Positions 7,322 to 36,664 of a stretch of 36,664 nt of DNA are shown piece after piece. Source of the stretch: a virus; the IMG/VR virus record IMGVR_UViG_3300009706_000002, positions 1 through 36,664 of that record. The stretch is one strand, 5' to 3'. Both the position numbers and the translations under genes were made by a program. A model generated the notes under the pieces. That model saw nothing but the letters and a program-made list of their open reading frames with translations, was not told where the DNA came from and made no database searches. Each line of letters opens with the position of its first letter. The stretch's first letter is position 1.

Positions 7322-7380
7322 ATTATTAAAATGTTGTTAGTCGCATTTTAGCAAATTTTAACTAAATTTCCACTATATAA
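7322..7380. promoter_or_regulatory. Divergent intergenic region between scaffold and terminase
   Basis: This AT-rich 59-bp gap separates the minus-strand structural genes from the plus-strand terminase operon and must hold both promoters, unless transcripts enter from outside. I see no clear -35/-10 pair and none of the 9-bp CTTATAG boxes found at the other promoters. The terminase ATG at 7381 has no upstream Shine-Dalgarno and directly follows TATATAA, so it may be leaderless. Confidence 0.45.
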
Positions 7381-12700: not shown

Positions 12701-13414
12701 CTAACTACACTTATTGGCCTCGTAAAAGGCCAAGGAAAAACCCTCTGGAGTCCACGACCGAGCCTCTTTTGTCTTTTCTGATGAGCCGCCGAGACGCTGG
12801 GTAAAAGAACCCTGGGGGCAGCATTTAACCGGTTCGATTCTTTTTGTCTCTGGAATTTTAAAATCTCCCCACAGGCCGGTCTTTTTAGTATATGCGTTTT
12901 GTTCGATTATAAAGTCGACTTCCTCTTTTGTTACGCCATGGCCGTTTTTAGCGCGTATCTTTTCCAGGCCGGACAAAGTTTTATTATCTGGGTGTAAGTA
13001 TCCAGCATAATCGCAAGGATCGAAATACGCCGGTTTCCCTAATTCTGGTATAAGTTTAGACAGTCTACCTACAGGGTTCTCGATTACCCAAAATTCTGGA
13101 CTATACAGATCTACGGCGCACAATACCTGGTAGACCAGGTCGATGGCCCTATCTGTTTTTCCGTTGGCGTCTTTTTGTCCCCAGTATTGCGCTCCACTAG
13201 ATGAAAAGTCGGTACACGGGGGAGCCGCTATAATACCCTCTACATGATCTATACCAATTTCTTCTAAAAGATATTCACAGGAAAAATCGTTTATATCTAA
13301 ACCGTCCTTAATATCGAAAGCGTATACGTCCCATTCGCCCAAGCTGGTGCCGTTTTGAATAAACGGAAGAGGCCAAGATCTACTATAATCAAATAATGTA
13401 AGCAAGTTTCTCAT
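12701..13414 (-). CDS. C5-cytosine methyltransferase-like protein
   Basis: About 237 residues from ATG 13414 (MRNLLTLFDYSRSWPLPF), which is where the family normally begins; in-frame starts further upstream (13435, 13465) fall in or near the promoter. It shows the Pro-Cys catalytic motif IIAAPPCTDFSSSGAQYW and the ENV-like WVIENPVGRL, plus a substrate-loop-like KKTGLWGDF. This minimal family, with no evident target recognition domain, is widespread in phages and usually annotated as cytosine methylase. The exact substrate is not known. It has its own promoter with tandem 9-bp boxes (13437-13465). Confidence 0.8.
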   Translation of the reverse strand: MRNLLTLFDYSRSWPLPFIQNGTSLGEWDVYAFDIKDGLDINDFSCEYLLEEIGIDHVEGIIAAPPCTDFSSSGAQYWGQKDANGKTDRAIDLVYQVLCAVDLYSPEFWVIENPVGRLSKLIPELGKPAYFDPCDYAGYLHPDNKTLSGLEKIRAKNGHGVTKEEVDFIIEQNAYTKKTGLWGDFKIPETKRIEPVKCCPQGSFTQRLGGSSEKTKEARSWTPEGFSLAFYEANKCS

Positions 13415-13436: not shown

Positions 13437-13465
13437 AGATTAACACTATAAGAGCTATAAGTCAA
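13437..13465 (-). promoter_or_regulatory. Promoter with two 9-bp boxes upstream of methyltransferase-like gene
   Basis: The minus strand reads TTGACT (13465-13460), a 17-base spacer, then TAATCT (13442-13437). Inside the spacer are two perfect boxes CTTATAG (13461-13455 and 13452-13446), exactly nine bases apart. The gene ATG at 13414 follows at a suitable distance. The same boxes occur at 20090-20105, 20166-20190 and 21795-21819. Confidence 0.65.
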
Positions 13466-13545
13466 GTACTATTTCCCGGGGAGAGGGGCTGTAAGAGTTG
13501 GGCTAAAACCCTTGGGGGTCAAATCCAAGAATTTTAAATATCAAG

Positions 13546-14238
13546 TTAATTTTTTCTGGGGATCCCGGCCGATCTCTCCATTTTTTCTAATTCTTTTCGC
13601 CAATTTCTTTTTATGTGGTCGGGCGGTCTACCAGGAGGCAGCGGAGCCAGGCCTACTCGTTCGGCACGTTTACGCCAGGAGTAAGCTATATGCCGCCGGG
13701 CTTTTTTCCTCGCATCTTTAACTGAGTGCCTCAGACGCCGACTTTGCCGGTACGTCCTGGCATGAGGTTTATCATTTTTAGAGTTTCGCTCTGGTAAGAT
13801 CTCCGTAATGGGTATATCTGTTATCGAATCTATAATATCAGATCCATTCGACTCCATTACCTCATAATCTATATCCTCTAACTTCAAAAATTTCTCAAAT
13901 GGGCTTTCAATCTTTACGTGGATCGTATCTTGGAGTTTCCCCCAATGCTTTAACACCAACGTAGCAGCGGGTACGGATCCTTGCTCTGCCTCCCTAATCA
14001 TTGCATCCAATACAGTAACCAGGCGATTACCAGCTACCTCCATGAACCGATCGTAGGCTGCATCTATTACCTTAGGCTGCTTAAACCACTTCTGTACCGT
14101 TGCATGGTTTAAATCTAACTCCCTGGCTATATCCGAATACGATATACTCGGCTTTAACGCCTTTATATCTATGGCTGCCCTCTGCTGAGGTGTTATTTCA
14201 CCGAATACGTTTATTTTTTCTAAGGCCTGGTTTTCCAT
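13546..14238 (-). CDS. terS: Probable terminase small subunit
   Basis: 230 residues. The N-terminal third carries a helix-turn-helix of the type found in small terminase subunits: SYSDIARELDLNHATVQKWF (about 33-52), then VAGNRLVTVLDAMIREAEQG and PAATLVLKHWGKLQ, a helical stretch like the oligomerisation core. The C-terminal half is very basic (RQSRRLRHSVKDARKKARR). In this role it would bind the packaging site and load TerL. It is on the opposite strand from terL and about 5 kb away, which is unusual. It could instead be a transcription regulator. It overlaps the preceding gene by 41 bases. Confidence 0.72.
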   Translation of the reverse strand: MENQALEKINVFGEITPQQRAAIDIKALKPSISYSDIARELDLNHATVQKWFKQPKVIDAAYDRFMEVAGNRLVTVLDAMIREAEQGSVPAATLVLKHWGKLQDTIHVKIESPFEKFLKLEDIDYEVMESNGSDIIDSITDIPITEILPERNSKNDKPHARTYRQSRRLRHSVKDARKKARRHIAYSWRKRAERVGLAPLPPGRPPDHIKRNWRKELEKMERSAGIPRKN

Positions 14239-14482
14239 GTATGAATACGCCCCATATAAATTTAAAAATTGTCCTGGGCTTTACCCTGTAAAAAGTAAAT
14301 CTCCCGCCCCCGTCATATTTCATTAATCCAGGACTGAATACTTCCGACTTATTACTGTATCTTGCCTTGCCTGGCCCAGAATCAGCATTGGCTACACCTA
14401 TAGTTAAATCGTCGTCTCTATTCTGTAGCCATTTCTCTTTCCTCTCTATGGACTCCCTAATCCTTTGATATTTCCCTCTCAT
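14198..14482 (-). CDS. Small early protein of unknown function
   Basis: 94 residues from ATG 14482 (MRGKYQRIRESIERKEKWL), overlapping the previous stop as ATGA, which favours translational coupling; a TTG nine bases earlier is less likely. It is basic, with a Gly/Asp-rich middle (VANADSGPGKARYSN) and a basic C-terminus. No family recognised. It overlaps the probable terS by 41 bases. Confidence 0.65.
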   Translation of the reverse strand: MRGKYQRIRESIERKEKWLQNRDDDLTIGVANADSGPGKARYSNKSEVFSPGLMKYDGGGRFTFYRVKPRTIFKFIWGVFIHGKPGLRKNKRIR

Positions 14483-14724
14483 AAATAGCAATTTAAATGC
14501 AGAATGACGTTATTAAAAGCTATTTTCGCGTGTGAGGTATGCACAAGCCCTGCCAGGCGGATCCCCCCATACCCCGGATCTAAGGTCAGATCGTTACATT
14601 TATTCTCATTAAGCATACTATAATAGTTCTTATTGAGACTAAGCCACATAGACATAGCAGCCCATATCCTTCCAAGTGTAGGCATACGTGAACATAGGGC
14701 ATAGTGTATAACTCTATTATACAT
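14479..14724 (-). CDS. Small early protein of unknown function
   Basis: 81 residues. MPTLGRIWAAMSMWLSLNKN and LTLDPGYGGIRLAGLVHTSH suggest a compact helical protein. No family recognised. The ribosome-binding site for the ATG at 14724 is poor (GAGGT lies 13 bases away), so an internal ATG may be used. A TATAAT hexamer on the minus strand (about 14730-14735) sits just upstream and might be a -10 element. The stop overlaps the next gene (ATGA). Confidence 0.6.
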   Translation of the reverse strand: MYNRVIHYALCSRMPTLGRIWAAMSMWLSLNKNYYSMLNENKCNDLTLDPGYGGIRLAGLVHTSHAKIAFNNVILHLNCYL

Positions 14725-14818
14725 AAAGTTTATTATACCTCATTCCTGTATCCCTGCCAGGATGACGCTAAGAAGAGTCCAGGGGGATAGTGATTCACCC
14801 GTACTAAGACACATATAT

Positions 14819-15004
14819 CTACTCATCAATACGTACCGGGTACTCATCATTAAGCTCTACTATCATGTCTGTTATATCCTTACCTGTAAGCTCCTTCTGC
14901 TCATGTATAGTGTTAAGACAATCATTGCACATACGTTCGTCTAAGTCTCCATCCCTGTCATCATACAGTACGCTGCATTCAATACACGTATAGCTCTCAG
15001 ACAT
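14819..15004 (-). CDS. Small putative zinc-binding protein
   Basis: 61 residues with two Cys pairs, YTCIECSVLYDD and RMCNDCLNTIHEQ, spaced like a small zinc ribbon; the rest is acidic. GGGAG lies seven bases upstream of the ATG. No specific family recognised. It lies downstream of the origin-like region in the early operon. Confidence 0.7.
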   Translation of the reverse strand: MSESYTCIECSVLYDDRDGDLDERMCNDCLNTIHEQKELTGKDITDMIVELNDEYPVRIDE

Positions 15005-15015
15005 TACACATCTCC

Positions 15016-15225
15016 CTATCCTTCCTCATTGTCTATGCCTATAAACTGTCCCTGTGGGGTTCCCTGGTACCACCACCAACCATTACCACTCTTAGCAAAC
15101 AGTTCGGATCTATCCTTTAGATACTTCTTGTTTTCAATATCTCCAGTATAAGGGTATCTTCCAGATGGACTCTTTCTCCAATCATGTTTGTTTCTATCTT
15201 CAGCAGTTGTTATTCTCTTTGCCAT
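15016..15225 (-). CDS. Small basic protein of unknown function
   Basis: 69 residues from ATG 15225 (MAKRITTAEDRNKHDWRKS). The frame stays open upstream to 15333, but that stretch is formed by the DnaA boxes and reads as non-genuine protein, so the internal ATG is preferred. Contains GNGWWWYQGTPQGQFIGID. No family recognised. It is the first gene on the left side of the origin-like region. Confidence 0.65.
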   Translation of the reverse strand: MAKRITTAEDRNKHDWRKSPSGRYPYTGDIENKKYLKDRSELFAKSGNGWWWYQGTPQGQFIGIDNEEG

Positions 15226-15254
15226 CAGTATACTAGATCCTCTCAGTATAAAAG

Positions 15255-15411
15255 TTTTCCACAGTAATACAAGAGTTATCCACAGTCTTTTTAAGGCTGT
15301 TTGTCGACGAGTAGGTGTAAAAGTTATCCACAATTAGGCTCTCTTATATTATATTAGTTAGTTATATTATATATATTATATATATATATATATATATATT
15401 ATATACACACC
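15255..15411. other. Putative replication origin: DnaA boxes next to an AT-rich tract
   Basis: On the plus strand TTATCCACA occurs at 15276-15284 and 15324-15332, both perfect matches to the DnaA box consensus TTATNCACA, and TTTTCCACA at 15255-15263 differs by one base. All three face the same way, the first two 21 bases apart. They abut an almost pure A/T stretch (15343-15405) with a long TA alternation, a likely unwinding element. The region 15226-15457 holds no convincing gene. With no phage polymerase or helicase visible, host DnaA-dependent initiation is a reasonable inference. Confidence 0.72.
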
Positions 15412-15457
15412 CGCGTACGAGAAACCCTTATAATTGATGAATAGTCCCTGCTGCATA

Positions 15458-15655
15458 TCATAGGCCCGGCTTCTTACCGCCGAGGGTTTCTAGTCCTGGT
15501 ATGTCATCTATCTGCTCTGGACTGAGGGTTTGGTCGCCATACTTGTTATGCGCCCTTAATACTTTAAGTGCTTGTTTGGTGCGGTCTTTGGGTATCGTTC
15601 TGCTAACCTTACTGTACTTTTTCTTCATACTAGTGAGCGTTCTTAATTGAATCAC
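15458..15655 (-). CDS. Small basic protein of unknown function
   Basis: 65 residues from GTG 15655, chosen for the excellent AGGAGG five bases upstream. Very Lys-rich at first (MKKKYSKVSRTIPKDRTKQA), then SPEQIDDIPGLETLGGKKPGL. No family recognised. It lies between the nuclease gene and the origin-like region. Confidence 0.7.
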   Translation of the reverse strand: MIQLRTLTSMKKKYSKVSRTIPKDRTKQALKVLRAHNKYGDQTLSPEQIDDIPGLETLGGKKPGL

Positions 15656-15680
15656 CGTTGCCTCCTATAGCTATTTAATT

Positions 15681-16076
15681 TCATAAGCCCAGGAAAACCT
15701 TTTTCTTACCGCCATGGTATTCATAAGCATGACCATGTATTTTTAATAGGTCATTCAAAGAGTCTTTATGCCCCTTAATGAAGAGTTCTCCCAATACGCG
15801 GCCATACTTGCCCACTCCATAGGATTTAAGCGTAAATATGCCTTTATCGGCCTCCAGCATATCTTTAGTATAGGCCTTAGCTAGCAGCCCCTTCTTCTTT
15901 TCTTCCTTATTCCGGGTACGACACTCCCAGGTATCTACACCCATAAACCGGATCCGTCTTTTGACCCAGACGTCAAATCCCAGGTCAATCATGGCGTCTA
16001 CCGTGTCTCCATCGACTACCCGGGCTAATTGTGCTTTATAAGCATACAGATCTAGAGTTTTTGGCAAAATTCGCAC
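15681..16076 (-). CDS. SNase-like (thermonuclease) endonuclease
   Basis: 131 residues, the length of a single staphylococcal-nuclease OB-fold domain. Catalytic and calcium-binding residues are present: VVDGDTVD (Asp22), RRIRFMGVDTWE (Arg41/43, Asp48, Thr49, Glu51) and YGRVLGE (Arg93), matching D21, R35, D40, T41, E43 and R87 of the classic enzyme. There is no signal peptide, so it probably acts in the cytoplasm on host or phage DNA/RNA. It overlaps the preceding gene by 25 bases. Confidence 0.9.
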   Translation of the reverse strand: MRILPKTLDLYAYKAQLARVVDGDTVDAMIDLGFDVWVKRRIRFMGVDTWECRTRNKEEKKKGLLAKAYTKDMLEADKGIFTLKSYGVGKYGRVLGELFIKGHKDSLNDLLKIHGHAYEYHGGKKKVFLGL

Positions 16077-16414
16077 TCCTTAAACCAATTCTTTAAGTTA
16101 TACTCTTTGGCGAAGGGTTCCGTAGGCTTTGGTATCTCCGGGAGCCATTCCTTATGCCAGTCCTTACACAAATCATTTATCTTAACAGAAATGTCTACTT
16201 TCTCGTCGGTGTTCTTAGGGAAGAAATAGGCACTTTTAAGCTCTGGGATCCTATGGTGCCACTCCCTAAGCGTTTCTATAGTTTGCTCGACGATCTTTTC
16301 CATTGTATGGGCAAATTCCCCGACGAAATAAAAGGCGTGTTCAGTATTAACCAGGATTACCGTCTCGTACTCCCAATGGATCTCCTTCTCCCTGCGCCGC
16401 TTAGGCTTATACAT
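16052..16414 (-). CDS. Early protein of unknown function
   Basis: 120 residues, rich in Glu, Lys and Trp, with a CEFCQ pair near the C-terminus and HTMEKIVEQTIETLREWHHR predicted to be helical. No family recognised. Its ATG directly follows the stop of the preceding gene (TAAATG) and its end overlaps the SNase gene by 25 bases, so it is embedded in the early operon. Confidence 0.72.
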   Translation of the reverse strand: MYKPKRRREKEIHWEYETVILVNTEHAFYFVGEFAHTMEKIVEQTIETLREWHHRIPELKSAYFFPKNTDEKVDISVKINDLCKDWHKEWLPEIPKPTEPFAKEYNLKNWFKECEFCQKL

Positions 16415-16615
16415 TTAATCTTTTTGTTTGCATAATGGACATCTCCTCTTTGCACATCCTAACTTTGGAAAGTCTCCGATATATTTCCAAGATAGGGGTT
16501 TTCTCTTGTTTTTGACTCTTTTCGCATAATATATCGTTGGTCGCCACTCCCAGACGCTCCGACAATCGGGGCAAACCTTCGGCGGCCTGGCCTTTGGGAT
16601 GTTTCGCCTCTCAAT
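16415..16615 (-). CDS. Putative zinc-finger protein lacking a standard start codon
   Basis: The frame is open from a TAG at 16631-16633 to a TAA at 16415-16417 that abuts the next ATG. It encodes RRNIPKARPPKVCPDCRSVW, then PTIYYAKRVK and ends LGCAKRRCPLCKQKD, a plausible four-cysteine zinc-binding protein. There is no ATG, GTG or TTG in frame. An ATT at 16613-16615, nine bases after the ruvC stop, is the best candidate start (66 residues). Codon usage resembles the neighbouring genes. Start and expression are uncertain. Confidence 0.55.
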   Translation of the reverse strand: MERRNIPKARPPKVCPDCRSVWEWRPTIYYAKRVKNKRKPLSWKYIGDFPKLGCAKRRCPLCKQKD

Positions 16616-16622
16616 TCGCCGA

Positions 16623-17108
16623 CTAACCCGCTAGATCCTTTATCTCTCCGCCAGACAAGTACAATTCCTTCGTCTGGTTGGCTATCAGTATAGCATCCGC
16701 CGTAGCCAGCGTAACCTTTAGTAGCGGCGCCCGCTGCTGGGCTAAGTTTTTAAAGTGAGTCTTTCGTAATGTTTTCTCTTTAGGGTAGGATCCATAAAAC
16801 TGCATCCACTTATACGGCGTTATAAGGTAGTAGGGGATTTTAAGCGTAGCCAGGATACCCAGCCACTCCCCGAAGTTCTTACCAAACTTAAAAGTAGAGG
16901 CTACTCCCTGTCCAGGCATGGAATGTACGCTTTCAATGGCTACCAGGGCGTTTTTACGCTCTCTATAGGGCATTAACACCTCTGCCATGTCTCGCACAGT
17001 ATCCGGACACTTGCAAACGGTGAAACCTAAACCCTCTATGGCGCAAACGCCGCCAGAAACACCAGGATCTATTCCAATAAACGCGAATTTGTCTATTTTA
17101 GGACTCAT
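16623..17108 (-). CDS. ruvC: RuvC-like Holliday junction resolvase
   Basis: 161 residues with the RNase H fold motifs of RuvC-type resolvases: FIGIDPGVSGG (Asp14), LVAIESVHSMPGQGVAST (Glu59), TPYKWMQFYG, and TLATADAILIA (Asp138). It cuts branched DNA at recombination or replication junctions before packaging. Here it sits with Rad52-like and SNase genes. Its ATG lies inside the end of a small overlapping frame (17098-17271). Confidence 0.9.
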   Translation of the reverse strand: MSPKIDKFAFIGIDPGVSGGVCAIEGLGFTVCKCPDTVRDMAEVLMPYRERKNALVAIESVHSMPGQGVASTFKFGKNFGEWLGILATLKIPYYLITPYKWMQFYGSYPKEKTLRKTHFKNLAQQRAPLLKVTLATADAILIANQTKELYLSGGEIKDLAG

Positions 17109-17271
17109 TTTGGCCTATAATGTAGTTTATTATAGTCTTTGCGCTTAATGGCATTGTATTAAACGTCAAATGGCGCGGAATTGGCGTTTGATCCGATACC
17201 CAGTCCCGACCATAAAAAAAGTCAAAACCTTTTCTTGGGCGTTTAGTCTTTGCTTTTAGTTTTTTAGGTAT
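17098..17271 (-). CDS. Small protein with a possible ATA start
   Basis: This frame fills the 155-base gap between two genes and reads PKKLKAKTKRPRKGFDFFYG, then RDWVSDQTPIPRHLTFNTMP, ending IIGQNES, a sensible basic protein of 57 residues. No ATG, GTG or TTG lies near its N-terminus. An ATA at 17269-17271 follows AGGGGG by six bases. An internal ATG would leave only 18 residues. It overlaps both neighbours slightly, as real genes in this operon do. No family recognised. Confidence 0.5.
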   Translation of the reverse strand: MPKKLKAKTKRPRKGFDFFYGRDWVSDQTPIPRHLTFNTMPLSAKTIINYIIGQNES

Positions 17272-17473
17272 TTTTAGCCCCCTTTTCGACTACTTTTAAC
17301 ATTCTTTCGATACGCTTGGCGCCCTTAATTATCGAACCTATCAAATCCAGGAGTATTTTAATGTTTTCCCTGGATTTAAAATGTCGAAAAAAGTCTCCTA
17401 CCTCATTTTTTAACATTTCTACAGCCAGAATTAGTTTTAATGTTTTTCTCTGTTTATCGGTCTTATTTGTCAT
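17264..17473 (-). CDS. Small Lys-rich helical protein
   Basis: 69 residues, very basic and helical (LILAVEMLKNEVGDFFRHF, then IIKGAKRIERMLKVVEKGA). Its ATG overlaps the methyltransferase stop (ATGA), which suggests coupled translation. No family recognised. Confidence rests on the overlap arrangement and coding appearance. Confidence 0.62.
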   Translation of the reverse strand: MTNKTDKQRKTLKLILAVEMLKNEVGDFFRHFKSRENIKILLDLIGSIIKGAKRIERMLKVVEKGAKNT

Positions 17474-18231
17474 TGTTCTTTACACAGCTCTTTAAGCCGC
17501 TTTCCAATGATATAGGGGATGTGCGGGACAACCGCGTTTCCGAGTCCAAACTTTCTATGTCTGTCCAGCCCTGGGGAAATCCCATTATTTTTTCTAATTC
17601 TTCTGGAGTCAGCAAATATAGATCTCCATTCTTCTTTAGTTTTAACGGTTGGTGTCCACCGCCTTTTGGTGTTCTTATTGTTGGGCTGTAATCCATAAAT
17701 ACTCGAATCTTTTTTTCTTTGAATCCGCCGTAAATATTGTGAACCAAACAACACTCCTCGCTGAACACAGACCGCAAAGTATCTTCTTCTCGCTTGTGGA
17801 ATCCCAAAATCTCTTGCATCAAATATTGCATCTCCCCACTCGTACCCAATATTCTCGATCTCTTGGCGTAATATCTTTGTCCATTTTTTGAATCCTTCCA
17901 CATTTTCAAATATAATTGCTTTTGGTTTTCTTTCATCACAAACGCGGATCATTTCATAAAATAGGTCGTCTTGTTCAAAACCGCCGCGCTTACCGGCCAG
18001 ACTAAACGCCGGACAAGGAAATCCACCGCTGATAATGTCCACCTTTTCAAGATTATGAGAACCAACCTTGCGAATATCGGTGAATTTTTTAGTATGAGGA
18101 AACCGGACTGATAGAAGTTGTTGGCAATAGTCATCAATTTCGACTTGCCACCTAGTCTCAATACCGGCCCACTCAAAACCAAGATCAATTCCACCAATGC
18201 CGCTGAACAGGCTGCCGTGCGTTATTTTCAT
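17470..18231 (-). CDS. C5-cytosine DNA methyltransferase with motif IX in another frame
   Basis: The open frame of 253 residues holds motif I (LFSGIGGIDLGFEWAG), the catalytic loop GGFPCPAFS (Cys73), ENV (IIFENVEGF), QARRRYFAV and GNAVVP. It methylates the 5-carbon of cytosine in a short target; the target is unknown. The stretch between about residues 160 and 225 is odd. The usual LTPEELEKIMGFPQGWTD segment (motif IX region) and the preceding recognition region are encoded in the +1 frame (17540-17790), while GNAVVP is back in the first frame. Two compensating frameshifts or sequence errors would explain this. The single-frame product would lack a normal recognition domain. It starts six bases after the annealase gene. 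Confidence 0.8.
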   Translation of the reverse strand: MKITHGSLFSGIGGIDLGFEWAGIETRWQVEIDDYCQQLLSVRFPHTKKFTDIRKVGSHNLEKVDIISGGFPCPAFSLAGKRGGFEQDDLFYEMIRVCDERKPKAIIFENVEGFKKWTKILRQEIENIGYEWGDAIFDARDFGIPQARRRYFAVCVQRGVLFGSQYLRRIQRKKDSSIYGLQPNNKNTKRRWTPTVKTKEEWRSIFADSRRIRKNNGISPGLDRHRKFGLGNAVVPHIPYIIGKRLKELCKEQ

Positions 18232-18237
18232 TGTTTC

Positions 18238-19110
18238 TCAAAAGGGAACGAAATCTAATCCATTTGTCTCGGCTAACCATTTCGGAATAGATATAGGCCC
18301 TATATCGCCTTTATTCTCAAAGGGCGGGCTGTTTAAGCAGTCCTCTATCTGGCTCTTAGGTATCCAGACCCTCTCCTTCTCGCCGCAGTTGGGATCTCCT
18401 ATTAAAATAGCCTTATATGCCCCAGGATCCGAGTAGCAAAACATTTTAGGCACCGTTACGAATGCCTTACTATCGTCATCTTGGGAAATAACCCGCCCGG
18501 CTGGGACTTGAGGGGGGAGCGGTTTAATACCGGACTTAATTATATTTTCAGTTGTCGGTACGTGTTGTATGGGAGGGGGAGACTCGACCACGGATCTGTC
18601 CTCCTGGGACTGGGCATGAGCTGAAGTTGAAGGCTCTTTTGCCTCAGTCCGAGGTAATGGGACTTTCTCGGACTTTACGTCCGAGCGAGGAGTATCCCAG
18701 GAGTTCAAGTCGACATAACCGCGATCGTTAGTCTCCGCGAAATGATCGCCCATAGAGTAAAGATCTCTACCAATACCGAATAGGACAGCTACGCGCTTTA
18801 ATGCGTCAGACACGGCGCCTTTTTCCGCCTCTATGTCCGTTTCCGTCCCGCAGTCCATTTTCGATACGGTCTTACCGCTCGGTAATTGTACTGTCAATTT
18901 ACAGAATATGCGACCCTTAATTTCCATATATTCGTTTTCCCAGTTTTCGGATCCAACCACATTGTCTAAAACATCCATTACATACCTGGCATCTACGTAG
19001 GCCAGCATCTTTACGTAACCGTTAGGTTTATCGTATCTCGCCTGGCGCCACTTAACCTCGTCCGGGGGTACCGGTTCATGCAATGTCTCCATTATTTTTA
19101 TATCGTCCAC
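18238..19110 (-). CDS. Rad52/Rad22-like single-strand annealing protein
   Basis: 290 residues from GTG 19110, chosen because AGGAG lies six bases upstream; the frame remains open to 19242 but overlaps the previous gene. The Rad52-family core is visible: VKMLAYVDARYVMDVLDNVV, NWENEYMEIKGRIFCKLTV, TETDIEAEKGAVSDALKRVA and VLFGIGRDLY. A Pro/Ser-rich linker (about residues 135-200) precedes a C-terminal conserved patch (RVWIPKSQIEDC). It pairs complementary single strands in recombination-dependent repair or replication. It lies upstream of the methyltransferase and RuvC genes. Confidence 0.9.
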   Translation of the reverse strand: MDDIKIMETLHEPVPPDEVKWRQARYDKPNGYVKMLAYVDARYVMDVLDNVVGSENWENEYMEIKGRIFCKLTVQLPSGKTVSKMDCGTETDIEAEKGAVSDALKRVAVLFGIGRDLYSMGDHFAETNDRGYVDLNSWDTPRSDVKSEKVPLPRTEAKEPSTSAHAQSQEDRSVVESPPPIQHVPTTENIIKSGIKPLPPQVPAGRVISQDDDSKAFVTVPKMFCYSDPGAYKAILIGDPNCGEKERVWIPKSQIEDCLNSPPFENKGDIGPISIPKWLAETNGLDFVPF

Positions 19111-19153
19111 TATAAGCTCCTCTATTTCGTTTTTAATGTAATTTTTCCAGCCC

Positions 19154-19531
19154 CTATCGCTTACGCGTTGCCTTATACTGGTGGTAATCGTAATGCGGGT
19201 TCCTATACATAGGCTTAGTCTCGGATCCTGTGAATAGCGCACCCTGGCCGTCCGGATCGAAAGGTTTCTCCGGGTAGACCGGAGTTACCAGGCGGCCAGT
19301 TATGGTACACTTTCGCTTAGGGTGTTCATATAGGGTGCCGGCTTTTTTAAGCTCATTACAGCGCCCACTCACAGCATTTATATCTATTAAGGTGAATTTT
19401 TGGATCTCTCGCAGCGTCCTGGGCTTATCCTGTGCGTACAAATACTCTAATATCTGCTGGCGCTGGGCGGTTGTTACTCCAGATCCCTGGATTTCTGAAT
19501 ACGCCTGCTTAGACGTGGATCTAACGCCCAT
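19154..19531 (-). CDS. Winged-helix DNA-binding protein
   Basis: 125 residues. RQQILEYLYAQ, TLREIQKFTLIDINAVSGRC and NELKKAGTLYEH form a winged helix-turn-helix of the kind seen in phage proteins that control choice of replication or resolution partners. The C-terminal quarter is Tyr/Lys/Arg-rich. Its ATG overlaps the previous stop (TAATG). Role as regulator or replication accessory is inferred. Confidence 0.8.
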   Translation of the reverse strand: MGVRSTSKQAYSEIQGSGVTTAQRQQILEYLYAQDKPRTLREIQKFTLIDINAVSGRCNELKKAGTLYEHPKRKCTITGRLVTPVYPEKPFDPDGQGALFTGSETKPMYRNPHYDYHQYKATRKR

Positions 19532-19698
19532 TATACCGCCTTTAGGTCTTTTAGCTTTTTCAATACGTACCTATCCATCATTTTTTCTATCTGACGGCTG
19601 GCAGACTTACCCTCCAATTTGCAGAGGCCGACGAACTCCTGGCGGGTCTGCGGGTTTATATCGTATACGTGAAAATGTACTTTATCTGGTTTTGGCAT
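19531..19698 (-). CDS. Ribbon-helix-helix DNA-binding protein
   Basis: 55 residues: a short beta strand (KVHFHVYDI) followed by two helices, TRQEFVGLCKLEG and SASRQIEKMMDRYV, the Arc/CopG/MetJ layout. These proteins bind as dimers to tandem short boxes. The genome has 9-bp tandem boxes at four promoters, including the one driving this operon, so autoregulation is a natural hypothesis. It overlaps the small membrane-protein gene upstream and the winged-helix gene downstream (TAATG). Confidence 0.72.
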   Translation of the reverse strand: MPKPDKVHFHVYDINPQTRQEFVGLCKLEGKSASRQIEKMMDRYVLKKLKDLKAV

Positions 19699-19843
19699 TT
19701 TTGCCCTCCCTTAACCCGGCATATATCGCCCAGGCTAATAGTGTTAATAATAATATATGAGCTATCCGGATTCCAAACGGATCCATTACGTCGGCCGTCG
19801 CTCCAAATGGCTGGTAGTTTAGTATAGTGATTAGTTTCTGCAT
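19682..19843 (-). CDS. Small single-span membrane protein
   Basis: 53 residues with one hydrophobic helix (IAHILLLTLLAWAIYAGL, about residues 27-44) and a short basic tail (REGKNAKTR). Its ATG follows directly on the previous stop (TAAATG), and its end overlaps the ribbon-helix-helix gene by 17 bases. No family recognised. Early expression and inner-membrane location are inferred. Confidence 0.65.
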   Translation of the reverse strand: MQKLITILNYQPFGATADVMDPFGIRIAHILLLTLLAWAIYAGLREGKNAKTR

Positions 19844-20056
19844 TTAGCCTCCCGTGCAATATACATTTAAGAAATTTAGAATACCTCTAAGTGTAGGAAT
19901 AATGTTTTTTTTACTTAGGCCGTGTATTTGCTGTATACCATAGGCCTGGCGGTTTTTTCTTATAAACGTCCGAAAACTAACAGCCTTCCGTCTGCTGCTA
20001 AACCACCTTTGGTGCGTCCCCTCCTGCGTATTGTACCTAAGTCTGTATAACTTCAT
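19844..20056 (-). CDS. Small very basic early protein
   Basis: 70 residues, rich in Arg and Lys (MKLYRLRYNTQEGTHQRWFS, then RRKAVSFRTFIRKNRQAYG). GAGGA precedes the ATG. It is the first gene of the minus-strand early operon and lies downstream of a promoter with 9-bp boxes. No family recognised; small basic first genes often act on host machinery, but that is speculation here. Confidence 0.75.
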   Translation of the reverse strand: MKLYRLRYNTQEGTHQRWFSSRRKAVSFRTFIRKNRQAYGIQQIHGLSKKNIIPTLRGILNFLNVYCTGG

Positions 20057-20080
20057 TTATTCCTCGTTTAAGTTGTTTCG

Positions 20081-20110
20081 ATCTTACAGCTATAAGAATT
20101 ATAAGTGCAA
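20081..20110 (-). promoter_or_regulatory. Early-operon promoter with two 9-bp boxes
   Basis: The minus strand reads TTGCAC (20110-20105), an 18-base spacer, then TAAGAT (20086-20081). Boxes CTTATAA (20105-20099) and CTTATAG (20096-20090) lie nine bases apart within the spacer, as at 13446-13461. It drives the gene starting at 20056. Confidence 0.6.
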
Positions 20111-20144
20111 GCATTATTGTATAAAAAAATAAATTATTATTTAC

Positions 20145-20190
20145 TTGCATACCATTAATAAGGCTCTTACCTTTCTTATAGTTCTTATGG
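20145..20190 (+). promoter_or_regulatory. Plus-strand promoter region with three 9-bp boxes
   Basis: TTGCAT (20145-20150) lies 17 bases before TACCTT (20168-20173). Boxes CTTACC, CTTATAG and CTTATGG start at 20166, 20175 and 20184. The 20 bases 20163-20182 are identical to 21801-21820. It would drive the accessory genes from 20321. Confidence 0.55.
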
Positions 20191-20321
20191 TTGATTTACT
20201 CAAATACGTTTCTTTTTTTGTTGCCCTGGTCGTTCTCCCGGGCCTTTCGTCTAGACCCCATAAAAATTATTTTGAATTGGTGCCTGTGGTTTCTGTATTA
20301 ATAAATAAGGAGAATAAATAA
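20187..20321 (+). CDS. Possible small membrane peptide ahead of 20321 gene
   Basis: 44 codons with one hydrophobic stretch (YVSFFVALVVLPGL). The stop TAA overlaps the next ATG (TAATG), which is the only support. There is no ribosome-binding site and the start lies inside the box region, so it may be just a leader. Confidence 0.25.
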   Translation: MVDLLKYVSFFVALVVLPGLSSRPHKNYFELVPVVSVLINKENK

Positions 20322-20710
20322 TGGATTACACTAAGATCTTAAACGAGGCCCACGTGGCCGGCATGGCCGCTGGAGAGGCCGCGATCCCTACAGCTATGGT
20401 AGTGTCCCAACACGCCAGCGTCCTGGACGACAATAGCCCGGTAGTAAAGTCCTGGCACGTTCCCGAGGGCGTCTGCGGCTTTGCCTATGTTATCACTAAT
20501 GAGCATGGTAACGGTAAATTCGTTAAACACCTTAAAGCACTTCCCAGAGATTACTCGCGCGGAAAAAAAGACTATTACGGCGGCTATTACGTTAAGTGGG
20601 TTCGTGAGTTTGGACAAAGCTACGAGCGTAAAATAGCTTACGCCGGTGCTTACGCCAGCGTATTAAATGATAATGGAATAAAAGCCTATTCACATGGGCG
20701 CTTGGATTAA
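20321..20710 (+). CDS. Conserved phage accessory protein of unknown function
   Basis: 129 residues. HVPEGVCGFAYVITNEHGNG, then YGGYYVKWVREFGQSYERK and ASVLNDNGIKAYSHGRLD are a pattern I have seen in hypothetical proteins of phages and mobile elements; the role is unknown. AAGGAG precedes the ATG. First gene of the plus-strand accessory cluster. Confidence 0.82.
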   Translation: MDYTKILNEAHVAGMAAGEAAIPTAMVVSQHASVLDDNSPVVKSWHVPEGVCGFAYVITNEHGNGKFVKHLKALPRDYSRGKKDYYGGYYVKWVREFGQSYERKIAYAGAYASVLNDNGIKAYSHGRLD

Positions 20711-20725
20711 CTAAGGAGGTATGTA

Positions 20726-21067
20726 ATGAAGTTACTAACGAAAGCAATCGAGAAGAAGTTGCGAAAAAACGCTGAGACAAAACCAGAAAAACTTAGAGAT
20801 ATGGGACACGTTCCGGTCGTTAAGTTCTTCGGCGGGCCTTATACGGCCTTATTCACAGAGCTATTCCCAGACGGCGATACTCTTTTCGGCCTGGTAGACC
20901 TTGGCATGGGGTTTCCCGAGCTTGGTTACGCCAGCTTAAAAGAAATAGCCAGCGTAAAGGTTCCGCCCTTTGGCCTGGGGATCGAAAGAGATATGTATTT
21001 CAAAACAAAGAAAAGCCTGGAAGAGTACGCGAACGTGGCAAGAAATAACGGGAGGATCATAGCATGA
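20726..21067 (+). CDS. DUF2958-family protein
   Basis: 113 residues matching the DUF2958 pattern: VVKFFGGPYTALFTELFPDG, LFGLVDLGMGFPELGYASL and the IERDMYFKTKKSLEEY ending. The family is found on plasmids and phages next to anti-restriction and other accessory genes; its biochemical role is not established. AGGAGG precedes the ATG. Its end overlaps the next gene by four bases. Confidence 0.85.
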   Translation: MKLLTKAIEKKLRKNAETKPEKLRDMGHVPVVKFFGGPYTALFTELFPDGDTLFGLVDLGMGFPELGYASLKEIASVKVPPFGLGIERDMYFKTKKSLEEYANVARNNGRIIA

Positions 21068-21324
21068 CTGATTTAAAAAAAATACAAAAAGAAAACGCCA
21101 AACGGATCAAGTTTGATGGAAACGCTTTGTCTGCCCTGGGGGCGAAAATAGCCTTACACGGCCAACTAATGGAGGTTGGCGGATGGGCATTTAAAGACCT
21201 GGAAGAATTTAAAGGATTAAATAAGGCCGTAGAGGTTGTTAAAGATCAGCTCGATAATGATGTGGCCTCCTGGGTTAATTCAAAACTTCCCTTGGACGAT
21301 AGAGATGAGGAGGATAAATCATGA
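21064..21324 (+). CDS. Small accessory protein of unknown function
   Basis: 86 residues, Lys- and Asp-rich with a helical N-terminus and an acidic end (PLDDRDEEDKS). ATGA overlaps link it to both neighbours, so it belongs to the same translationally coupled set. No family recognised. Confidence 0.72.
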   Translation: MTDLKKIQKENAKRIKFDGNALSALGAKIALHGQLMEVGGWAFKDLEEFKGLNKAVEVVKDQLDNDVASWVNSKLPLDDRDEEDKS

Positions 21325-21572
21325 GTAAACAGAAAAAATATTTAGTGTTAACAGTCGGATGCTTGGAGGCACTAATAAAAGTAGCGATGAAAAGCTCGCA
21401 CCAATGCGCTGTCTTGCGTCTTGAGGCCGCCGGTAAAAGCGTCCCTGGGCAGTTATCCTATACAGACGCTTTCCAAGAGCGCGTCTGGGCGATTGCGGCC
21501 GGGTTTGATAGCTACAAAGAATACCAGGAGGCGTCGGTAGAAGAGGTTAACAGGAGAAGAAATGAAAATTAA
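21321..21572 (+). CDS. Small accessory protein of unknown function
   Basis: 83 residues, predicted helical (LEALIKVAMKSSHQCAVLRL, then VWAIAAGFDSYKEYQEASV). GAGGA lies upstream of the ATG, which overlaps the previous stop. No family recognised. Confidence 0.72.
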   Translation: MSKQKKYLVLTVGCLEALIKVAMKSSHQCAVLRLEAAGKSVPGQLSYTDAFQERVWAIAAGFDSYKEYQEASVEEVNRRRNEN

Positions 21573-21771
21573 AGCAAATAATAAATATATTTATGATCCC
21601 GTTCCTCTGGATATTCTAGATCCACGTACAGATTTAAAAGGCGGCGAGGTCGTAACCGTAGTAAGCCTACCGGGCTGTCCGCCCCCTGGTACCATGAACC
21701 ATGCCCATATCGACTATAAAGATAGCCTGGCCGGCCTGGTTCATGTTAACAGCCTAAGGGGTATAAAATGA
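21562..21771 (+). CDS. Small accessory protein of unknown function
   Basis: 69 residues. GGEVVTVVSLPGCPPPGTMN and AHIDYKDSLAGLVHVNSL look like a small beta-barrel, of a type often seen as hypothetical proteins in phages. AGGAG precedes the ATG. It overlaps the previous gene by 11 bases. Confidence 0.72.
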   Translation: MKIKANNKYIYDPVPLDILDPRTDLKGGEVVTVVSLPGCPPPGTMNHAHIDYKDSLAGLVHVNSLRGIK

Positions 21772-21782
21772 GAAAAAATAGC

Positions 21783-21820
21783 TTGCGTATCGTTCCTATA
21801 GCTCTTACCTTTCTTATAGT
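21783..21820 (+). promoter_or_regulatory. Internal promoter region with three 9-bp boxes
   Basis: TTGCGT (21783-21788) lies 17 bases before TACCTT (21806-21811). Boxes CCTATAG, CTTACC and CTTATAG start at 21795, 21804 and 21813, all nine bases apart. It shares an exact 20-base match with 20163-20182. A ribosome-binding site (AGGAGG) and ATG 21838 follow. Confidence 0.55.
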
Positions 21821-21837
21821 CTTTAGGAGGACATAGA

Positions 21838-32051: not shown

Positions 32052-32439
32052 AACCTTTTAAAACCGCGGAGTGCCAATCAATAGCTTTTCTAACATCGTC
32101 TGTACTTAGATCTAGGTTCCCATCAAAATCAGCTTTCCAAACTTTTTTCTTTTTACCGTCTTTGAATAAAACAACGCTTGGGAAATTCCGCAGTCTTAAT
32201 TTTCTTACTGTCTCTGGAATATTTTTTGCTGGGAGTATCATTATCATAGTGCCATGATAGGCGCTATCTCCTTCTACAATAAACTTCCCTTGGTAAAAAT
32301 TCTGTTTATTATCGTCTGACCATTCCGCGGTAAACCTCACCAAGTGCATTCCTTTGTATATTGCTCCCAAAAAATTCGCATCGTTTACCTCTTGCTGTGC
32401 GGGCTGACCAAAAGCTAATGATAATAGTAACCACCTCAT
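32047..32439 (-). CDS. Secreted thioredoxin-fold protein lacking the CxxC motif
   Basis: 130 residues. A short N-terminal hydrophobic signal (MRWLLLSLAFGQPAQ) precedes a thioredoxin-like core: LVRFTAEWSDDNKQNF, where Trp-Cys-x-x-Cys would be expected, and LRNFPSVVLFKDGKKKKVW with the cis-proline strand. No cysteine is present, so it cannot act as an oxidoreductase. Role unknown. It overlaps the preceding gene by four bases. The region has few GATC sites, like the fibre tip. Confidence 0.75.
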   Translation of the reverse strand: MRWLLLSLAFGQPAQQEVNDANFLGAIYKGMHLVRFTAEWSDDNKQNFYQGKFIVEGDSAYHGTMIMILPAKNIPETVRKLRLRNFPSVVLFKDGKKKKVWKADFDGNLDLSTDDVRKAIDWHSAVLKGY

Positions 32440-32777
32440 TGGACTGCAATTCTTAAGTTTGTAATCTGTTTATTTAGTTCTTTAATTTCATCTTGCAGTC
32501 CCTCAATAATACCATAGATGTCATCTTGATTTTCTTGAAGATTTCCTACCTGCTGTTTATACTGTTCGTAGGAGGGACTCCAGTTAAAATCGCTAATCCC
32601 CTTACTCGGATACTCCTGAGAGAATAGAGACAAAGGTATGGGTAACTCTTTAGCCTCCTGTATATCTGCCTGTAGCACATACCACATCCCAACAAGTGAT
32701 GCAATTCCCATTCCTGCTCCAATCATAGTCTGGATACTAAGGGTAAATTTAGTGTCTGGGCTTAATTCTTGTGGCAT
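32436..32777 (-). CDS. Small membrane/coiled-coil protein near the lysis genes
   Basis: 113 residues. MPQELSPDTKFTLSIQTMIG leads to a hydrophobic segment (GAGMGIASLVGMWYVL), then a C-terminal coiled coil (NQDDIYGIIEGLQDEIKELN). Its first 24 residues are duplicated exactly, with different codons, in a relic at 34851-34931. The type recurs in marine phages beside fibre genes; function unknown. Confidence 0.78.
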   Translation of the reverse strand: MPQELSPDTKFTLSIQTMIGAGMGIASLVGMWYVLQADIQEAKELPIPLSLFSQEYPSKGISDFNWSPSYEQYKQQVGNLQENQDDIYGIIEGLQDEIKELNKQITNLRIAVQ

Positions 32778-32798
32778 TATATACGCTTCCTCGCCTAC

Positions 32799-34335: not shown

Positions 34336-34702
34336 TTTCTTTAATTCCGTTTTTCATCTTTTCCAAATCCTCCATGTAATCGACAAAGCCTTTATCTATT
34401 ACGCCGAACCTTTGATCTTTAGCCAGGCCGTAGATTACATCTACTTCCTCTTGCGTAAGATTTACCGTTCCGGTTGCTTCTTCCAGCTTATCCATGAGCT
34501 TAATGCGGTCGCGCATATCGGATGGAGCCAGGCCGCCCTCGGGGATGCTGTTAAGCGCCCCTTTCATTAGCGTTTTGTATTCTACCTTTACGGGATCTCC
34601 GCCAGTTACTTCGATCTCAAAGGTTTTTAGTTGCACGTTTATTAATCCGTTTACCATTTTTCTTTCCTCCACAGCTTGTTTATTGGTTCTTGTTTGTATC
34701 AT
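34316..34702 (-). CDS. Small protein of unknown function
   Basis: 128 residues. FEIEVTGGDPVKVEYKTLM, then GLAPSDMRDRIKLMDKLEEA and LTQEEVDVIYGLAKDQRFG read like a compact helical protein with a short N-terminal strand. Its ATG overlaps the stop of a 51-residue gene (ATGA). The pattern resembles small proteins beside lysis or tail genes in marine phages, but I cannot name a family. Confidence 0.72.
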   Translation of the reverse strand: MIQTRTNKQAVEERKMVNGLINVQLKTFEIEVTGGDPVKVEYKTLMKGALNSIPEGGLAPSDMRDRIKLMDKLEEATGTVNLTQEEVDVIYGLAKDQRFGVIDKGFVDYMEDLEKMKNGIKESGSRKI

Positions 34703-34854
34703 TTATCAAATCTTTTAATTACTTTTTTTATTTCTGCCCAGAGCTGATCGTCTTTTTTCGACTTGGTCTGCTTGGTTATGAAATCGCCCACGTAAACCAG
34801 TAAGCCGATCGACCCGTGTTTTTTCAGTAGTTTTTTTAATATTATTTTAATCAT
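34699..34854 (-). CDS. Small basic protein
   Basis: 51 residues (MIKIILKKLLKKHGSIGLLV, then YVGDFITKQTKSKKDD, ending VIKRFDK). ATGA overlaps link it to the relic frame upstream and to the next gene, so it is translationally coupled. No family recognised. It marks where the host-type composition (GATC at 34807) resumes after the imported fibre tip. Confidence 0.62.
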   Translation of the reverse strand: MIKIILKKLLKKHGSIGLLVYVGDFITKQTKSKKDDQLWAEIKKVIKRFDK

Positions 34855-34931
34855 GCGTTTCCCATTCCTGCACCAATCATCGTCTGGATGCTAAGTGTGA
34901 ATTTAGTGTCTGGTGATAACTCTTGTGGCAC
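34851..34931 (-). pseudogene. Truncated duplicate of the 32436-32777 gene
   Basis: A GTG overlapping the fibre stop opens a 26-residue frame, MPQELSPDTKFTLSIQTMIG then AGMGNA. The first 24 residues equal those of the 113-residue gene at 32777, while the DNA differs at several third positions. I read it as the edge of a recombined fibre block that carried the start of its old downstream neighbour. It may still be translated and feed the next ATG (ATGA). Confidence 0.75.
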
Positions 34932-36664
34932 TATGCGTTCTCCAATGCTTCTACTTTTGCTGATAATTCTTGGACTGCTTTTACTAAAGCAGGAACTATT
35001 GATTCTTCAGATAAAGCCCATGGATTTTTCAAGTCTCCCTTTTTATAAGAATCATCAGCACTATCATTATCCCAAACTTCATCATTTCCAACTTCAACGG
35101 CTTCAGGACATACATCATTTAATTCTTGAGCAATAAAGCCCAAGTCTGAACTTCCATTAGCTTTCCAATCCCACCTTCTGACTTTCATGTCTAAGACATC
35201 CTGTAGTCTTGACCCCTCATCAACAATATTCTCTTTCATTCTTACATCGGAATCATTTACCCAATTACTACCACCAGTTGCCACATGAGTTGCTCTACTG
35301 CCATCACTATAATCCCAAAGTTCTAATAATCCACCATCGGGACATCTCAATCTCCATTGGTGTCCACCATCTCTTGTGAAATACAAGGCTGATTGGTCAG
35401 TGCTTGAGCCTGTACTACAATCTAAAAATAAATTTGCTTCTGAGTCAGCCCCACCAGTTGCTTCAATCTTCATAGTTGCCGATGAGGCGTGGGCGACATG
35501 AAGTACATTAGACGGAGCCGTAGTCCCAATTCCGACATTGCCAGAGGGGTCAATAACCATCCGTTGACCTAATGCTGCACCACTTGCTCTTGTATAAAAC
35601 GCAAGTTCTCCATCATCTTTATTTGTAGTATCTGTCCCACTATGAGTTGCCATCCTTGTAATCTCAGTACCATTCCAATATTGTCTAATACCACCCATTC
35701 CAGAACCAGCACCTGAAAGATTTGCATCAGAAACTATCCATGCACTATTATCACTTGTGTTTTTTAGTTCGAGCATTCCTCTTGTAGCACCTGCTGCCAA
35801 AACAACACTTAATTTCTCTGCAGGACTATCAGTCCCAATGCCGACATTGCCATCTTGCTGAATCGTAAATTTTGTAGCAACACCAACATCGGCAGAACCC
35901 GTATCTGTTGAAATCTTAAACTTGTTACTATCACTATTATCCAACCCCATAGCCCAGATTTCACTATCAGCTACAAAAAACATAGAAGCATCACCAGCAC
36001 CCAACTGACTAATCTTGAGTTGCCCTAAAACATCAGATGAATTTTCTTCTATTACAAGATTAGTATTCGGTGCCGCAACTCCAATTCCGACATTGCATCC
36101 TAAAAATGATATATCACCAGCTCCATCAAATTCAATTCTTTCAGCATCATCGGCTATTCCAATGGAAGTATCATCTCCCATTAAGATGTTGGCTCCCATT
36201 GTTAAATCAGCCGCCATATTTACAGCACCATCTATATCGACTATATCAAGGTTGGTGGTTCCTACCACATCTATGGCTCCACTAATATCTAATGTCGCCG
36301 CAGCAAGCTCTCCGCTTATAGCTAAGTTTCCAGAGCTGGGATTATAGGTTAATCCGGTATCAGTCTCCGCCCCTTGAGTCCCCGTTGCTCCATCCACAAA
36401 AACAGGATAGACCGTTTCGTCTGTACTGTTATTAGCGCTCGCCGTAAAGCTGGTTGCTAAAGTGGCCGTATCTGCATTTCCAGTAATGTCGCCGGTTATA
36501 TCGCCTACAAAGGCCGTGCTTGTTACTGAAGTCGCCCCCGTAACGACACCCGCATCTACACTAATCGTCCCGTCTAATAAAATTGCTGACCCCGCAGCGG
36601 GTTCTATATTAATGGCTGCACCAGAATCTAGAGTTAGGACTCCTGCTGAATCAATATCTACTGT
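34931..36664 (-). CDS. Giant tail fibre, C-terminal part with S74 autochaperone domain
   Basis: Bases 36541 to 34931 encode residues 1497-2032 of the same fibre; 36542-36664 repeat bases 1-123. The last ~115 residues form an intramolecular chaperone (peptidase S74) domain. It begins near NDSDVRMKENI, the usual self-cleavage region ahead of Ser-Asp, followed by RRWDWKANGSSDLGFIAQE and a C-terminal coiled coil ending VEALENA. In known members this domain folds the trimer and then cleaves itself off. Codon choice and motif content of about 34855-36400 differ from the rest of the genome: no GATC sites and no CCWGG that I could find. This suggests the tip was acquired by recombination. The stop TAG overlaps a GTG that opens a short relic frame (34931-34851). 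Confidence 0.92.
   Translation of the reverse strand, partial: TVDIDSAGVLTLDSGAAINIEPAAGSAILLDGTISVDAGVVTGATSVTSTAFVGDITGDITGNADTATLATSFTASANNSTDETVYPVFVDGATGTQGAETDTGLTYNPSSGNLAISGELAAATLDISGAIDVVGTTNLDIVDIDGAVNMAADLTMGANILMGDDTSIGIADDAERIEFDGAGDISFLGCNVGIGVAAPNTNLVIEENSSDVLGQLKISQLGAGDASMFFVADSEIWAMGLDNSDSNKFKISTDTGSADVGVATKFTIQQDGNVGIGTDSPAEKLSVVLAAGATRGMLELKNTSDNSAWIVSDANLSGAGSGMGGIRQYWNGTEITRMATHSGTDTTNKDDGELAFYTRASGAALGQRMVIDPSGNVGIGTTAPSNVLHVAHASSATMKIEATGGADSEANLFLDCSTGSSTDQSALYFTRDGGHQWRLRCPDGGLLELWDYSDGSRATHVATGGSNWVNDSDVRMKENIVDEGSRLQDVLDMKVRRWDWKANGSSDLGFIAQELNDVCPEAVEVGNDEVWDNDSADDSYKKGDLKNPWALSEESIVPALVKAVQELSAKVEALENA
36542..36664. repeat. Terminal direct repeat, right copy
   Basis: Exact copy of bases 1-123. 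The unique genome length is therefore 36,541 bp. See the left copy for interpretation. Confidence 0.95.

Follow-up and report, generated by a model that had tools for sequence, protein, structure and literature searches.

The genome of a virus known from IMG/VR record IMGVR_UViG_3300009706_000002 carries short boxes repeated in tandem with a 9-bp period at four separate places, and the question arises as to whether these boxes are operators and, if so, which protein would read them. The window, that is, the whole stretch of DNA analysed, comprises all 36,664 bases of this genome. Since its ends are identical over 123 bases (an exact terminal direct repeat, 1-123 and 36542-36664) and are joined in the near-identical contig L005, the genome is probably complete, and circular or circularly permuted. 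No similar DNA was found among phage records, and, among the best-ranked phage records listed, terminase identity does not exceed about 31%. DNA outside called genes makes up 6.3% of the genome. Besides the boxes, a 300-nt direct repeat with 72% identity was identified (1-300 and 376-675), around which the only listed open reading frames are antisense-looking ones on the plus strand, and the two copies are probably repeats within a long structural gene spanning the ends of the record. An 82-nt repeat with 85% identity (32699-32780 and 34853-34934) was also detected; the gap preceding 34699-34854 appears to contain a remnant copy of the start of gene 32436-32777.

Tandem pairs of the box CTTATAGNT with a 9-bp period were found at three sites, 13446-13461 and 20090-20105 on the minus strand and 20175-20190 on the plus strand. 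Site A (13446-13461), identified by exact match, reads CTTATAGCT CTTATAG, and site B (20090-20105), identified by both exact match and matrix scan, reads CTTATAATT CTTATAG. Site C (20166-20190, plus strand) is composed of three units, CTTACCTTT CTTATAGTT CTTATGG, and site D (21786-21819, plus strand) of four degenerate units, CGTATCGTT CCTATAGCT CTTACCTTT CTTATAG, again with a period of 9 bp. As the first unit of C and several units of D are off consensus, only A, B and C are counted as clear pairs. All four sites are located inside the non-coding 6% of the genome. Sites C and D have an exact match of 20 bases in common (20163-20182 and 21801-21820), which is part of a 44-nt direct repeat of 80% identity starting one base before the TTG hexamer. 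Both the box coordinates and the exact 20-base match given in the original prediction proved correct on re-reading of the sequence.

The specificity of the boxes was estimated by scanning the whole genome with a matrix derived from the sites. The best pairs scored 26-27 bits (26.8 for site A) and site D 17.4 bits, compared with 12.4 bits for the best unrelated place, but this first matrix included the D units CCTATAGCT and CTTATAGTC. With a leave-one-out matrix built from A, B and C only, these three sites stayed the top three, the left-out site scoring 22.7-23.3 bits (23.3 for site A), and site D, which is not used in the A/B/C matrix, ranked next at 16.0 bits, the best unrelated place being at about 12.5. 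The scan for which the original prediction had called thus yielded no equally good tandem boxes elsewhere. When coding and non-coding blocks were shuffled separately with matched composition, three similar tandem sites never appeared together in non-coding DNA at any of eight periods, with 300 shuffles for each, and two such sites appeared in 5 of 2400. A cruder shuffle of the whole genome, which ignores location, gave a cluster of four at period 9 in 2 of 100 cases, a modest significance. The 20-base match between C and D is the longest exact internal repeat of the genome, an AT run and the terminal repeat aside, and the longest in 60 shuffles was 17. Altogether, the excess of tandem 9-bp boxes is real: as in a multi-site operator system, the same tandem motif is present at several gene starts, where promoter activity is presumed, and absent from the rest of the genome.

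Each site lies in a promoter-like context. On the minus strand, site A is flanked by TTGACT (13460-13465) and TAATCT (13437-13442) at a spacing of 17 (13437-13465; a weak sigma-70 match, 8/12), and site B by TTGCAC (20105-20110) and TAAGAT (20081-20086) at a spacing of 18 (20081-20110). In both, the spacer is filled by the two boxes, the -10-like hexamer starts three bases past the second CTTATAG, and a short leader is followed by a Shine-Dalgarno-like sequence and an ATG; the likely ATG of a methyltransferase gene follows the pair of A after about 20-25 nt, and the ATG at 20056 follows that of B after about 25 nt. On the plus strand, C (20145-20173, TTGCAT-17-TACCTT) and D (21783-21811, TTGCGT-17-TACCTT) are weak promoter-like pairs of the same geometry, TTGC(A/G)T-17-TACCTT, within the 44-nt repeat, and the CTTATAG units are positioned at and after the -10-like hexamer. 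The TTGNNN hexamers of the original prediction are present at all four sites: in A and B no more than 4-5 nt separate the hexamer from the first box downstream, and in C and D TTG (at 20145 and 21783) is 21-30 nt upstream of the shared units. None of the four pairs was picked up by a consensus promoter scan, which found no more consensus promoters in the region than chance would give. Because the hexamers are weak and consensus promoters occur at chance frequency, promoter function is deduced here from position and should be read as putative. The transcription start of B is uncertain, because its boxes also offer a TATAAT.

The genes behind the four sites are non-structural. The gene behind A (12701-13414, minus strand, start codon assigned tentatively) is similar to DNA cytosine methyltransferases (PHROG 757, E 2e-39; Pfam PF00145, E 4e-6), and is the second methyltransferase-like gene in addition to that in the leftward operon. 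Sites B and C are arranged back to back between the leftward and rightward operons. The leftward operon behind B starts with a 70-residue gene (19844-20056, minus strand) with no family match, and includes, as judged from profile matches, an Erf-like recombination protein, the other methyltransferase and a resolvase-like protein. In the rightward operon, which follows C, the first clear gene (20321-20710, plus strand) matches PHROG 22149, a family of unknown function (E 7e-7). Site D is in a 66-nt gap, the sole sizeable gap of this otherwise tightly packed operon. None of the other intergenic regions of at least 48 nt in this genome exceeded 6 bits in the matrix scan, and the divergent region of structural genes before the terminase (7322-7380) is devoid of CTTATAG boxes, in agreement with the proposal that the boxes cover non-structural but not structural genes, which holds in this genome. 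Region 7322-7380 carries repeats of its own, ATTTTAG / AATTTTA / TAAATTT, and is well conserved in three relatives. The genes behind the boxes may be expressed early.

The most likely reader of the boxes is the product of the third gene of the operon behind B (19531-19698, minus strand), a 55-residue protein of sequence MPKPDKVHFHVYDINPQTRQEFVGLCKLEGKSASRQIEKMMDRYVLKKLKDLKAV; its position in an operon behind a boxed promoter is as originally described. By sequence, the ribbon-helix-helix assignment does not reach significance: the match to Pfam PF19839 (RHH_9) is 14 bits, below the cut-off of 23.4 (E 0.04), no ribbon-helix-helix match was obtained with NCBIfam or PHROGs, and a sequence search of solved structures returned nothing relevant. 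The ribbon-helix-helix fold consists of an N-terminal strand and two helices joined by a turn, within some 45-50 residues, and its dimers insert a two-stranded ribbon into the major groove. An AlphaFold2 model without alignment, predicted as a single chain, has an extended N-terminus followed by two helices, 15-28 and 32-52, albeit at low confidence (pLDDT 63); poor modelling is to be expected when an obligate dimer is predicted as a monomer. None of the Foldseek matches of this model is significant by itself (E above 1), yet ribbon-helix-helix proteins are frequent among them (CopASO, ParG, Arc, AtaR, PutA, AmrZ, AvtR and FitA). In a second structural comparison, 16 of 16 entries were of the ribbon-helix-helix type (Z 2.3-4.7). 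The fold of the 55-residue protein is probably ribbon-helix-helix. That it binds the boxes is suggested by gene position and by analogy with F55 of SSV1, omega, Arc and CopG, and this we believe and doubt in about equal measure.

The boxes might instead be operators for another protein, either the winged-helix-like protein encoded at 19154-19531 (minus strand; PHROG 1123, E 1e-15; PHROG 2440, transcriptional regulator, E 1.5e-4; MarR_2, E 0.002, below cut-off), the helix-turn-helix protein encoded at 13546-14238, or a regulator of the host. The matches of the two phage proteins to DNA-binding families are at least as good as that of the 55-residue protein, and the winged-helix gene is in the same operon as the 55-residue gene. 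Winged-helix proteins, however, usually prefer inverted repeats, while the boxes are direct repeats spaced at less than one helical turn, and the 13546-14238 protein also matches terminase small subunits. We consider a different reader rather unlikely.

The boxes might also be positive elements, through which an activator or a modified polymerase would switch on weak promoters at a given stage of infection. The promoter-like pairs are indeed weak at all four sites and missing from the consensus scan, and phage middle promoters with activator boxes provide a precedent. On the other hand, the boxes of A and B separate the two hexamers, a position from which most bound proteins obstruct polymerase, and activation in this manner seems improbable.

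A role in coding was examined because the 9-base unit equals three codons and because the bases shared by C and D can be read as ALTFLIV in one open frame. On this view, a stretch encoding part of a hydrophobic peptide (ALTFLIV in either frame) would have been duplicated to give C and D, and regulation would be confined to A and B. Both repeats are indeed within open frames: that of C in 20145-20321, the stop of which overlaps the next ATG, and that of D in a 22-codon frame (21768-21836) with an ATGA overlap with the previous gene. The differences between C and D, however, are distributed 4/5/2 over codon positions 1, 2 and 3 of the shared frame, so that third positions are avoided, in accordance with the earlier claim that they are not favoured. 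The coding signal is nil in the repeat segment of C (z 0.4) and in the short frame of D (z -0.2), and ambiguous for the whole frame of C (z 2.0, a value of 2 being reached by 16% of spurious frames); in addition, site A carries the same box with the corresponding frame closed. A purely coding role was set aside on these grounds, and the duplication of a coding segment at C and D is quite improbable. The reading at the DNA level, regulatory rather than coding as originally proposed, is well supported by the location of the sites, the shuffles, the leave-one-out scan and the codon-position pattern. A hydrophobic frame of 44 codons (20187-20321) is possible, running from the ATG at 20187, which lies within site C, to an overlap with the next ATG; its coding signal is ambiguous.

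Iterons or other replication or packaging sites, which tandem short repeats near non-structural genes may recall, were set aside as very improbable, because the boxes are scattered across 8 kb, at gene starts and in either orientation, and a better origin candidate exists at 15226-15457. This intergenic candidate origin contains three DnaA-box-like motifs (TTTTCCACA once and TTATCCACA twice) beside a long AT-rich tract.

The preferred reading is that the boxes are operators for a small phage repressor, most likely the 55-residue protein, forming an autoregulated set. A small phage-encoded DNA-binding protein, most likely the 19531-19698 product, would bind the boxes as adjacent dimers, one dimer per 9-bp box in the major groove, covering the spacer in A and B and the start region in C and D of four weak sigma-70-like promoters, and so would occlude RNA polymerase. 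Bound protein would repress the leftward operon encoding the regulator itself (B), the divergent rightward operon (C), the distal part of the latter (D) and the separate methyltransferase gene (A), so that negative feedback within the set would limit or time the expression of the non-structural genes. This operator reading is favoured by the excess and location of the sites, the fit of the boxes in the spacers of A and B, the conserved geometry of C and D, the non-coding signature, the absence of boxes from other intergenic regions, the likely fold, the gene position third behind B and the precedents of ribbon-helix-helix proteins. It is weakened by a sequence match below every cut-off, the pLDDT of 63, the weak hexamers and the presence of other DNA-binding proteins nearby. 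As a whole, the explanation stands at an even balance, and what it describes is likely a plausible and fairly ordinary kind of viral switch.

The analysis rests on one genome, because no early-region relatives sharing the sites were found: searches of viral contigs gave no independent phage with an early region sharing sites A-D, and searches of genome contigs with the terminase and the regulator gave no early-region relatives. No homologue of the 55-residue protein was found in viral and genome contigs. Some of the terminase relatives are near-identical contigs, and the others are short structural-gene fragments ending before the boxes; the near-identical contigs cover only site A, which is unchanged over 160 bp. 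Only distant relatives (38-44%) were found for the 20321-20710 protein, and a repeat search detected no boxes in them. A scan of viral contigs for TTGNNNTTATARNTCTTATAG gave 30 loci, which were taken as chance since all but one lacked even a weak match to the tested proteins of the window; the exception showed 25% identity to the terminase. A single locus with GCTCTTACCTTTCTTATAG was rejected, its context being unlike sites C and D.

If the pairing of protein and boxes is right, a single genome suffices to give a 55-residue protein without a recognisable sequence family its fold and its precise DNA targets, and the compact, testable operator code provides access to early gene control in phages of a group known only through metagenomes. 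More tentatively, with doubt outweighing belief, the pair may represent a sequence-orphan family of ribbon-helix-helix repressors that reads 9-bp direct-repeat boxes in promoter spacers, co-ordinating non-structural operons and a DNA methyltransferase in a phage lineage without isolates. Searching the literature for ribbon-helix-helix dimers with stated base-pair spacings gave no precedent for a spacing of 9 bp.

Among known systems, the operator of the Arc repressor is located between -35 and -10, and its half-sites are inverted and about 11 bp apart. The phage system resembles that of Arc in its phage origin, the similar size of the candidate protein and, at A and B, a putative operator between -35- and -10-like hexamers, but differs in its direct 9-bp repeats, and no sequence similarity between the proteins was detected. 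Arc, of phage P22, is a ribbon-helix-helix protein of 53 residues (PMC4803016).

The alignment of ribbon-helix-helix dimers on tandem short repeats at promoters is already known from F55 and SvtR (PMC5569661), omega (PMC4803016) and CopG (PMC8251345). The omega repressor of the omega-epsilon-zeta operon binds as one dimer per short unit and polymerises along repeat arrays at its operator (PMC4803016), as is proposed for the phage protein, but its unit is a 7-bp heptad in a plasmid system. Adjacent dimers of CopG are chained on one operator (PMC8251345), again as proposed for the phage, but CopG is a plasmid copy-number repressor of different sequence. F55 of the Sulfolobus spindle-shaped virus SSV1 binds tandem ATAGATAGAGT in or beside several viral promoters including its own (PMC5569661), and the phage likewise combines a viral ribbon-helix-helix candidate with tandem short repeats at several putative promoters, including that of the candidate itself. 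F55 belongs to an archaeal virus with archaeal promoters and the repeat ATAGATAGAGT, and its binding has been demonstrated, whereas the phage case is known from sequence. If the inference is right, the phage boxes would work in the same manner as the F55, omega and CopG systems.
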